Below, one piece after another: positions 17,131 to 21,508 of a stretch of 64,000 bases of DNA. Below the pieces are notes generated by a model. The model was not told the DNA's origin. It ran no database searches and saw nothing but the letters and a program-made list of their open reading frames with translations. The stretch's first letter is position 1. The number at the start of each line of letters is the position of its first letter. A program made the translations under genes and the position numbers. The stretch is from Hylemonella gracilis (GTDB taxonomy: Bacteria > Pseudomonadota > Gammaproteobacteria > Burkholderiales > Burkholderiaceae_C): the NCBI RefSeq assembly GCF_004328645.1, contig NZ_CP031395.1:124001-188000 (forward strand), written 5' to 3'.

Positions 17131-18252
17131 TCAGGCCGCGCCGAGGTGGGGCACCAAGCCCGTAAGTGGCTGGCCCGCCTTCTGCGCGGCCGTGAAGGTC
17201 AGCATGCGATCGATGGGCAGGCGCGCACGGGGAATCAGGACAGGATCGACATGGACTTCGTTCATGCCCGTCTCGAGCACCTGAGCGACGCCAGCCAGGC
17301 CATTCATGGCCATCCAGGGACAGTGCGCGCAGCTCTTGCAGGTGGCGCTGTTGCCGGCCGTGGGCGCTTCGATGAAGGTCTTGCCGGGGTTGAGCGTGCG
17401 CAGCTTGTGCATCATGCCCTTGTCGGTGGCGACGATGAATTCCTGTGCGTCGAGCTCCTTCGCCGCCTTCAAAATGCCCGAGGTCGAACCCACGGCGTCC
17501 GCCAGCGCCACCACGCCACTGGGCGACTCCGGGTGCACCAGCACCTTGGCCTTTGGGTGTTCCCTCTTGAGCTCTTCCAACTCGAAGGCCTTGAACTCGT
17601 CGTGCACGATGCAGGCGCCGTTCCACATCAGCATGTCGGCGCCGGTCTCGCGTTGGATGTAGGCCCCCAGGTGGCGATCGGGCGCCCAAAGGATCTTGTG
17701 GCCCTGGTCCTTCAGGGCACGCACGATGTCCAGCGCGCAGCTGGAGGTGACCAGCCAGTCCGCCCGCGCCTTCACCGCCGCGCTGGTGTTGGCGTAGACG
17801 ACCACGGTGCGGTCCGGATGCGCGTCGCAAAAGGCGCTGAACTCGTCCACGGGGCAGCCCAGATCCAGCGAGCAGGTCGCGTCCAGGTCGGGCATCAGGA
17901 TGGTCTTTTCGGGGCTGAGGATTTTGGCCGTCTCGCCCATGAAACGCACGCCGGAAACCACCAGCGTCTGCGCCGCATGGTCCCGGCCGAAGCGGGCCAT
18001 TTCCAGTGAATCGCTGACAATGCCACCAGTCTCCTCGGCCAAGTCCTGCAGGTCTGGGTGCACGTAGTAGTGCGACACCATGACGGCGTTTTTTTCCTGG
18101 AGCAGGCGTCGAATCTTGTCCTTGAGCGCGACCCGCTCGGCGGGCGCGGGCTCGGCTGGCACGCGGGCCCACGCGTGATGCGTGGAGCACGCCGCGCCTG
18201 CGCTCAGGCTTTCGGGTTGCTCGTATTCGACGTCGATGACTGCGCTGTCCAT
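17131..18252 (-). CDS. nadA: Quinolinate synthase A
   Basis: A 373-aa [4Fe-4S] enzyme condensing iminoaspartate with dihydroxyacetone phosphate to quinolinate. Conserved elements: [65 protein letters not shown] and [15 protein letters not shown], which supply the cluster cysteines. The start [15 protein letters not shown] was chosen at 18252; the frame is open much farther upstream, but that part overlaps nadC. It follows nadC by 26 bp, and nadB is not in the window. Confidence 0.96.
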
Positions 18253-18278
18253 GATTGCTCCATCACTCCAACCGACCG

Positions 18279-19202
18279 TCACAGGTCCAAGAAGCGCATC
18301 GAGAAGTCGACCGCCTTCACGTCTTTGGTCAAGGCGCCGATCGAGATGCGGTCCACACCGGTGGCCGCGATCTCGCGCACCGTGCCCATGTTCACGCCAC
18401 CGGATACCTCGAGGATCGCCCGACCCGCATTGATGCGCACGGCATCGCGCAGCGTCGGCAGGTCCATATTGTCCAGCAGCACCATGGTCGCACCGGCCTG
18501 TAGGGCCTCTTCGAGCTGGGCCAGTGTCTCGACTTCGATCTCGATGAACCGGGCCGCCGCCGCGACGGACGCGGTGGCACGCACCTGGGCCAGGACCTCG
18601 GTCACGCCGCCCGCGGCGGCGATGTGGTTTTCCTTGATCAGCACGGCGTCGTACAGGCCGATGCGGTGGTTCCAGCCCCCGCCACAGTGCACCGCGTATT
18701 TCTGCGCCAGCCGCAGGCCGGGCAGGGTCTTGCGGGTGTCGACGACGCGGGCGCACACCTTGGCGCTGGTGCCGGACACCTCGGCAATCGCGGCGACGTA
18801 GTCCGCGGTGCGGGTGGCCACGGCGCTGAGCAGCTGCAGGAAGTTCAGCACGGTGCGCTCGGCCGTCAGCAGGCCACGCGCGGGCCCCGTCAGCTCCAGC
18901 ACGGCCTGGTCTGGCTGGCAACGCTGGCCTTCGGCCACCAACCATTTCCATTGCGCGCCGGGCGCTGCCTGCCGCAAGGCAGCCTCAGCCCAGGGCGCGC
19001 CGCAGATGATTGCGGCCTCACGCGCGAGGATGCGGGCGCGCGCGATTTTGCCGGCTGGCACCAAGGCAGCGGTCAAGTCACCGGCGCCCACGTCTTCCGC
19101 CAGGGCACGTGCCACGTCGGCCTCGGCCAGGCGCCACAGCAGGTCGGCGGTGTAATCGAGCACGGGGGAAGGCGCGGTTAACGCGGACATGGACAACTCC
19201 AT
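18279..19202 (-). CDS. nadC: Nicotinate-nucleotide pyrophosphorylase (carboxylating)
   Basis: A 307-aa enzyme converting quinolinate and PRPP to nicotinate mononucleotide. The N-terminal domain ([26 protein letters not shown]) and the barrel ([71 protein letters not shown]) are complete. Its first 100 codons belong to a 335-bp segment repeated in exact tandem upstream, so the gene now follows two chimeric frames instead of gpsA directly. The start ATG overlaps the stop of the nearer chimera (TGATG). Confidence 0.96.
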
Positions 19203-19537
19203 CAGCGGATTTCAGGACTGGGCTCGCGCTCCATCAGGGCCTGGTCTGGCTGGCAACGCTGGCCTTCGGCCACCAACCATTTCCATTGCGCGCCGGGCGC
19301 TGCCTGCCGCAAGGCAGCCTCAGCCCAGGGCGCGCCGCAGATGATTGCGGCCTCACGCGCGAGGATGCGGGCGCGCGCGATTTTGCCGGCTGGCACCAAG
19401 GCAGCGGTCAAGTCACCGGCGCCCACGTCTTCCGCCAGGGCACGTGCCACGTCGGCCTCGGCCAGGCGCCACAGCAGGTCGGCGGTGTAATCGAGCACGG
19501 GGGAAGGCGCGGTTAACGCGGACATGGACAACTCCAT
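19202..19537 (-). pseudogene. Chimeric NadC(1-100)-GpsA(tail) frame, copy 1
   Basis: A 111-codon frame created by the tandem repeat. It encodes NadC residues 1-100, then [11 protein letters not shown], the GpsA C-terminus, and stops at the gpsA stop codon. The N-terminal NadC domain is largely present, but the catalytic barrel is absent, so no enzyme activity is expected. The stop TGA overlaps the ATG of intact nadC, and the start overlaps the stop of copy 2, so ribosomes could pass down the chain by coupled re-initiation. Whether a stable peptide is made is unknown. Confidence 0.8.
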
Positions 19538-19872
19538 CAGCGGATTTCAGGACTGGGCTCGCGCTCCATCAGGGCCTGGTCTGGCTGGCAACGCTGGCCT
19601 TCGGCCACCAACCATTTCCATTGCGCGCCGGGCGCTGCCTGCCGCAAGGCAGCCTCAGCCCAGGGCGCGCCGCAGATGATTGCGGCCTCACGCGCGAGGA
19701 TGCGGGCGCGCGCGATTTTGCCGGCTGGCACCAAGGCAGCGGTCAAGTCACCGGCGCCCACGTCTTCCGCCAGGGCACGTGCCACGTCGGCCTCGGCCAG
19801 GCGCCACAGCAGGTCGGCGGTGTAATCGAGCACGGGGGAAGGCGCGGTTAACGCGGACATGGACAACTCCAT
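19537..19872 (-). pseudogene. Chimeric NadC(1-100)-GpsA(tail) frame, copy 2
   Basis: Identical in sequence to copy 1. Its ATG overlaps the stop codon of intact gpsA (TGATG), exactly as nadC must have done before the duplication. It is the first cistron after gpsA in the minus-strand operon. As with copy 1, it would give a 111-aa NadC N-terminal fragment with an 11-residue GpsA tail. Confidence 0.8.
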
Positions 19873-20921
19873 CAGCGGATTTCAGGACTGGGCTCGCGCT
19901 CCATCAGGGCCTGCACGGCCTGCTGCGGCTGCATCTCACCATCCAGCAGAGCCACGACGGCCTCGGTGACGGGCATGTCCACGCCCAGGTGCCGCGCCCT
20001 TTGCGCGACCGTGCGGGCGCAGTAGACGCCTTCGGCCACATGGCCAAGCGAGGTCACGGCCTCGTCCAGGGTCTTGCCCTGGGCCAGCAGCAACCCCACC
20101 TTGCGGTTGCGGCTGAGGTCGCCGGTGGCGGTCAGCACCAAGTCTCCCAAGCCAGACAGGCCCATGAAGGTCTCGGCGCGCGCGCCCAGGGCAAGACCGA
20201 AACGCATCATCTCGGCCAGGCCGCGGGTGATCAGCGCGGCACGGGCATTCAGACCCAGGCTCAGTCCGTCACACAGGCCAGTGGCGATGGCCAGGATGTT
20301 CTTGACGGCGCCGCCCACCTCCACACCGACCAGGTCGTCGTTTTCATAGACCCGCAGGCGCGGGCTGTGGAAGGCCTGTACCAGGCGTTCGCGCACCAAG
20401 GCATGGGCACTGGCCGCGACCAGGGCCGTGGGCTGTCCCTGGGCGACTTCCTGCGCGAAGCTGGGACCGCTCAGCACACCGGCTTGCAGTCCCGGCGCGA
20501 CCTGCGCCTGCACCTCATGGGCCATCAGCCCCACGGGCTGTGCCTGCCCTGCCTCGCCATCGGTGCTAGCCCCGGGCCGGGGCAGGCTGCGCTCCAAGCC
20601 CTTGCAGATCCAGGCGACGGGCACTCGGCAATTCCGCAACTCTTGCAGCAGACCACGCAGGCCGGCCATGGGCGCGCCCAGGATGACCAAATCCTGTTCC
20701 GTGCAGAAGTTCACGACCTCGGCGCCATCCACGATCTTCAGATCACCCGGCAAGGGCAGGCCCGGCAGGTAGCGCGCATTGACACGGTCGGCGCGCATGG
20801 CACGCGCTTGCGCAGCGTCGCGCGCCCAAAGGGTAACCCGATGGGCCTGACGCGGGTTGTCGCTGGCGCTGACGGCCAGCGCCGTGCCCCATGCGCCAGC
20901 GCCCAGGACCAGGATGTTCAT
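19872..20921 (-). CDS. gpsA: Glycerol-3-phosphate dehydrogenase [NAD(P)+]
   Basis: A 349-aa enzyme making sn-glycerol 3-phosphate for phospholipids. [16 protein letters not shown] is the Rossmann nucleotide loop; [17 protein letters not shown] contains the catalytic Lys; [20 protein letters not shown] is the substrate-binding motif. An insertion ([19 protein letters not shown]) lengthens it slightly over the usual 330 aa. It follows secB by about 21 bp in the same direction, and its stop overlaps the start of the first chimeric frame. Confidence 0.97.
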
Positions 20922-20942
20922 GCGGGGGCGCTCGGCCTGGCG

Positions 20943-21404
20943 TTACTGAATCTGTTGTCCCGCGGCGCCATTCGTCGCCCCGCCGGCCACTTGTTGCTGC
21001 TCATACAAGGCCTGGAAGTTGATTTCCTGCAGGTGCACGGGCGGAAAGCCCGCGCGCTGGACCAAGTCCGCCATATTGCCGCGCAGGTAGGGGAAGACGA
21101 TCTGGGGGCAAACCACGCCCAGCACGGGTCCCATCTGGGTCGACGGCACGTTGCGAATCTCGAAGATGCCGGCCTGCTTGGCTTCCACCAGAAACACTGT
21201 CTTGTCTGCGATCTTGGTGGTGACAGTGGCGGTCACGCTGACCTCGAACACCCCATCGGCCACGGGCTCGCCCGCGACATTGAGCTGGATGTCAACCGAC
21301 GGCTGCTCGTTCTGCAGAAAGATGGCCGGGGAATTGGGTTGTTCCAGCGAGGCCTCCTTGAGGTAGACACGCTGAATCTGGAAGACAGGTTGTTGTTCGG
21401 CCAT
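20943..21404 (-). CDS. secB: Protein-export chaperone SecB
   Basis: A 153-aa cytoplasmic chaperone that holds preproteins unfolded for Sec[23 protein letters not shown] and [29 protein letters not shown] are the conserved family segments. It lies between grxC and gpsA, matching the common grxC-secB-gpsA order of proteobacteria. Intact. Confidence 0.97.
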
Positions 21405-21508
21405 GATGGTCTCGGTTGTCTCTTGGAATGTGAACTGTGAGGTACGAACCCGCCCGGCGGCAATCGCCAGACAGGTCGAAATGGGTCACGCGCGCCGCCG
21501 TGTGCGTG

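Follow-up and report, generated by a model that had tools for sequence, protein, structure and literature searches.

Hylemonella gracilis NS1 is a soil bacterium. In the window analysed here, a stretch of 64,000 nucleotides of its genome, the housekeeping genes gpsA and nadC lie on the minus strand with a repeated sequence at their junction. A unit of 335 bp is present there three times, head-to-tail and in identical copies (18903-19907), and between the two genes stand two chimeric reading frames. The features at this locus, from the gpsA side to the nadC side, are as follows:

19872..20921, minus strand: gpsA, intact, 349 amino acids (Pfam PF01210, PF07479 and PF20618)
19967..19990, minus strand: segment of gpsA with predicted pairing to the start and ribosome-binding site of the frame directly after gpsA (folding prediction)
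19908..19913, unstranded: closing GGCCTG, 6 bp; the same 6 bp opens each copy (microhomology)
19898..19913, unstranded: gpsA-side 16-bp endpoint, with 14 of 16 bases as at the nadC-side endpoint
19573..19907, minus strand: repeat copy adjoining gpsA, 335 bp (exact self-comparison)
19537..19872, minus strand: chimeric frame 1, NadC residues 1-100 plus the GpsA tail, 111 codons (open reading frame, Pfam)
19238..19572, minus strand: middle repeat copy, 335 bp (exact self-comparison)
19202..19537, minus strand: chimeric frame 2, same sequence as frame 1 (open reading frame, Pfam)
18903..19237, minus strand: repeat copy adjoining intact nadC, 335 bp, identical to the other two copies
18279..19202, minus strand: nadC, intact, 307 amino acids from the first ATG (open reading frame, Pfam)
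18893..18908, unstranded: nadC-side 16-bp endpoint, with 14 of 16 bases as at the gpsA-side endpoint

The array is evident by two means. Tandem Repeats Finder reports 18893-19913 as a repeat of period 335 with 3.0 copies and 99% matches. In exact self-comparison, a shift of 335 gives no mismatch between 18903-19578 and 19238-19913 (676 bases), and a shift of 670 gives none over 18903-19243 (341 bases). Chance is excluded as the source of an exact self-match of 676 bp. These analyses confirm the exact tandem triplication of the original prediction, along with the microhomology GGCCTG that it placed at the unit ends, which is refined here to 14 matches in a 16-bp stretch. The absence of any difference among the three copies, their head-to-tail arrangement at a single locus and the short similarity of the endpoints (6 bp exact, 14 of 16 overall) are the characteristics of a recent bacterial tandem duplication or amplification.

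Perfect identity of the copies is also what would be seen if one true copy had been expanded during HGAP assembly or scaffolding, and, in the available portion of the strain paper, PacBio alone is named for DNA (PMC9948732). According to the same portion, H. gracilis NS1 (CP031395) was sequenced on the PacBio RS II with P6-C4 chemistry, yielding 70,101 reads with an N50 of 17,309 nt, and was assembled with HGAP3 into one contig of 3,822,245 bp (PMC9948732); the genome analysed here is likewise one contig of 3,822,245 bp. However, a read set of this number and length should include individual reads that cross the whole 1-kb array. Moreover, no other such exact array occurs in 400 kb of the same genome: 20 random 20-kb stretches, about 10.5% of the genome, contain none with at least two full exact copies (period 10-1499, run of at least 60). 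This 400-kb sample gives no sign that exact tandem copies are in excess across the genome. The assembly artefact that had been raised as possible is thus distinctly unlikely, given the published read lengths as far as the available text reports them.

By NadC, the nearest named relatives are H. gracilis ATCC 19624 (89% identity) and Niagara R (88%). In both assemblies the unit is present once and nadC directly follows gpsA, although these are draft or scaffold records, in which a single copy could reflect short-read collapse. This comparison of copy number in sister strains had been proposed as a check, and with that proviso about short reads, absence of the array from near relatives is what a recent duplication would leave. 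A second NadC N-terminal match is found at none of 86 nadC loci (L033-L118), which have one match each and which include some genomes twice and many draft or metagenome assemblies whose short reads could hide copies. Among plasmid records, a near-mode search found nothing similar to 18600-20200. The gpsA-nadC array is the only one in the window with at least two full exact copies, and 115 loci of other genomes (708,393 bases, overlapping) contain one such array, of 29-bp period, in L031.

The arrangement of the two genes differs within the genus. In four other members, represented by 16-kb stretches (L035-L038), gpsA and nadC are separated by approximately 7.7 kb (for example, L035:4269-12004), so adjacency itself varies. 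Within the interval in G018, an ABC transporter is the match of one large frame; the other two frames tested lack any Pfam match.

The sequences of the relatives also bear on the age of the array. Leaving out 7 gap columns, the NS1 unit differs from that of ATCC 19624 at 47 of 334 aligned bases, and, with 11 gap columns left out, from that of Niagara R at 56 of 330. When the copies are treated as a star tree with zero changes, the upper limit on the age of the array, in the absence of homogenisation, would be approximately 4% of the time since ATCC 19624 diverged; any copying between repeats weakens this limit. The very recent origin claimed from the start is in keeping with the lack of differences between copies and with the single copy in both nearest relatives.

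The gpsA tail, the stop codon and the nadC ribosome-binding site and start are all contained in every copy, and both full genes therefore survive. In a consensus scan of 18200-21500, both strands lacked sigma-70-like promoters, so that there is no visible promoter for the repeat to multiply; two terminator-like sites lie near 18605-18627 on the plus strand, with 1.6 expected by chance in 18200-21500. Pfam recognizes both domains in GpsA and likewise in NadC. At three copies gpsA and nadC are both complete, whereas in phase variation a change in copy number breaks or restores a gene. As originally described, the two chimeric frames are open between gpsA and nadC, and each comprises 111 codons made up of the NadC start and the GpsA tail.

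The position of the nadC start is best judged across the three strains. In NS1, the ATG of TGATG is in frame with nadC and lies 12 nt upstream of a second ATG (Met5). The spacing between these two ATGs is 11 nt in ATCC 19624 and 10 nt in Niagara R, which places the TGATG ATG out of frame in both. The sequence ATGTCC at Met5 is identical in the three strains, and in NS1 a GGAG is located six bases upstream of Met5. The TGATG ATG is doubted as a start because it is out of frame in the relatives while the Met5 ATG is conserved. From these alignments, nadC translation likely begins at Met5, which lies 11 nt past the gpsA stop and has its ribosome-binding site immediately after that stop; the ATG of TGATG probably does not function as the nadC start. 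The likely start at 19190 gives a NadC of 303 amino acids, and the corresponding likely starts of the chimeric frames, 19860 (frame 1) and 19525 (frame 2), give 107 residues each. Coupling through the TGATG overlap, as first envisaged, is therefore not supported, given the frames of the relatives, but the broader idea of stop-and-restart survives; nadC translation may occur by stop-and-restart or by fresh initiation.

Across the whole genome, the QRPTase_N domain is matched at three places, namely intact nadC and the two chimeras. In the chimera, the match covers model positions 2-59 of 82 with a score above the Pfam cut-off, and Pfam gives no match to QRPTase_C. If the chimeric NadC fragments are made, they could poison NadC dimers, as might be suspected from open frames that carry the nadC start region and score as an N-terminal domain. 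However, the similarity ends inside the N-terminal domain and the C-terminal domain is absent, which makes folding doubtful. In addition, a protein-collection search with the 111-aa chimera returned 106 matches from 197 candidates, all restricted to approximately 61-194 aa, and the chimera itself was absent from them. The best match by E-value is 61% identical to the query and covers 83% of it; no match exceeds 80% identity, a value reached over 32% of the query. With an N-terminal domain that is partial and no C-terminal domain, the proposed interference of NadC fragments with the enzyme is unsupported and extremely improbable.

The array straddles the gpsA-nadC translational junction and could have been selected either because two extra stop-and-restart steps lower nadC expression or because extra ribosome-binding sites and the distance from gpsA uncouple and raise it. 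Folding prediction with 150-300 upstream bases gives an accessibility of 0.09-0.10 for a start directly after gpsA. For the nadC start after a chimera, nine of the 12 settings give a predicted value of 0.31-0.32, and the three settings with 250 upstream bases give 0.13-0.17. When the upstream stretch is swapped for 71 other gpsA stretches, the last of which partly overlaps the 19967-19990 segment, accessibility is 0.10 or lower once and has a median of 0.32.

In the folding prediction, the gpsA segment around GTGGACATGCCC (minus strand, 19967-19990; present as well in L039 and L040) pairs with the ribosome-binding site of nadC and with its start. Such pairing is predicted in three Hylemonella genomes, and its effect is strongest in NS1; the start accessibility predicted for the relatives is 0.14-0.18 in ATCC 19624 and 0.23 in Niagara R (150-300 upstream bases). 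When gpsA is divided into 40-nt tiles, no tile of ATCC 19624 forms a stronger duplex with the start region than the segment does, but in NS1 and Niagara R the segment ranks only second. Judged from these models, the pairing may represent a translational-coupling hairpin, from which the array moves nadC away; this is a weak lead as opposed to a finding.

Several observations argue against selection through nadC expression. The array leaves the 53 bases upstream of the nadC start unaltered, and local initiation of nadC is therefore likely the same. With 53-120 upstream bases, the predicted difference in accessibility is no greater than 0.02. Furthermore, the folding prediction ignores translating ribosomes, and the predicted effect of pairing is weaker in the relatives. 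The strain paper, in its main text, contains no mention of NAD, nicotinate, quinolinate, tandem or "duplicat" (PMC9948732). Selection of the array through nadC expression is consequently considered unlikely. A more specific version, in which the gpsA segment covers the nadC ribosome-binding site, the array offers a decoy start and copy number serves as a reversible uncoupling dial, is very unlikely. If it were true, nadC would be well translated only when gpsA is, and the array would free the real nadC start. The copy number of the 335-bp unit would then uncouple NAD synthesis from gpsA, and a change in copy number at a gene junction would act as a translational dial.

The array is best explained, with considerable confidence, as a recent and probably nearly neutral small tandem amplification that began with a duplication at short sites and then expanded between copies. 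In the first step, misalignment through replication slippage or template switching would have occurred between two similar 16-bp sites, which read CAGGCC(C/G)TG(A/C)TGGAGC in gene sense, and would have duplicated the DNA that extends from the 3' end of gpsA to nadC codon 100. In the second step, unequal exchange or slippage between identical copies would have taken the 335-bp duplicate to three copies. We infer both the mechanism of these steps and the absence of a strong effect. RecA is encoded in the genome.

The similarity between the endpoints is unexceptional. The 2.3-kb single-copy stretch contains 717 exact 6-mer direct pairs spaced 100-600 bp apart, and two other places in it reach 14 of 16 matches or better. 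The endpoints thus fit a microhomology event without proving one. At NadC codons 99-100 (18903-18908), NS1 has CAG-GCC (Gln-Ala) and both relatives have CAG-ACC (Gln-Thr); the G for A at the nadC-side site in NS1 completes the 6-bp identity. Because CAGACC is found in both relatives, this identity requires either a prior change in NS1 or later copying between the repeats.

Direct repeats of comparable length have been studied in other bacteria. In Deinococcus, as described in the available part of that report, the median frequency of deletion between direct repeats of 438 bp is 6.5e-4, more than 10-fold above that in a study of 358-bp repeats in Helicobacter, and RecA is not needed for these deletions (PMC4627823). 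Such deletion frequencies, so far as that part of the report goes, suggest that repeats this long are unstable and that the NS1 array should change copy number readily. We infer that expansion, as opposed to deletion, also takes place at repeats of this kind. Since unstable arrays tend to collapse, an assembly with three copies might, as a counterpoint to neutrality, point to selection. Most likely, the array is a new instance of a known process, ordinary and unstable.

The NS1 array resembles the short-junction tandem duplications and amplifications that arise spontaneously in bacteria: the copies are exact and head-to-tail, the ends are similar over a short distance, the event is recent and seen in a single strain, and the flanking genes are retained. 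However, the NS1 unit is small (335 bp) and already present in three copies, and its nadC-side end is one base off both relatives. Waite et al. are said to have described, in 2001 and 2003, spontaneous sequence duplications in pneumococcal capsule genes (cited in PMC4022640). There, as in NS1, tandem duplications arise spontaneously within a gene region, but the pneumococcal duplications are internal to a reading frame, which they switch, whereas the NS1 array spans a gene junction and breaks neither gene. Microhomology-mediated tandem duplications are also known from fission yeast, where, as in NS1, duplication occurs between short matching sequences. Unlike the NS1 array, which is known from sequence alone, the fission yeast system is eukaryotic and reversible. 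In the part of the literature covered by the search, nothing was found on the gpsA-nadC array, which provides a clean, datable example of amplification at an operon junction that leaves both genes whole and creates chimeric frames.

Repeats of other kinds are present elsewhere in the NS1 genome. The inexact tandem arrays in the same-genome sample belong to one repetitive gene, a frame of 2,830 amino acids (L136:10655-19147; C1, approximately 3.19 Mb) with long, similar internal repeats of periods 321, 588, 906 and 1494, in which DUF5649 repeats are matched in 12 stretches. Additionally, an exact 250-bp direct repeat occupies L132:6315-6564 and recurs 1,358 bp further along.
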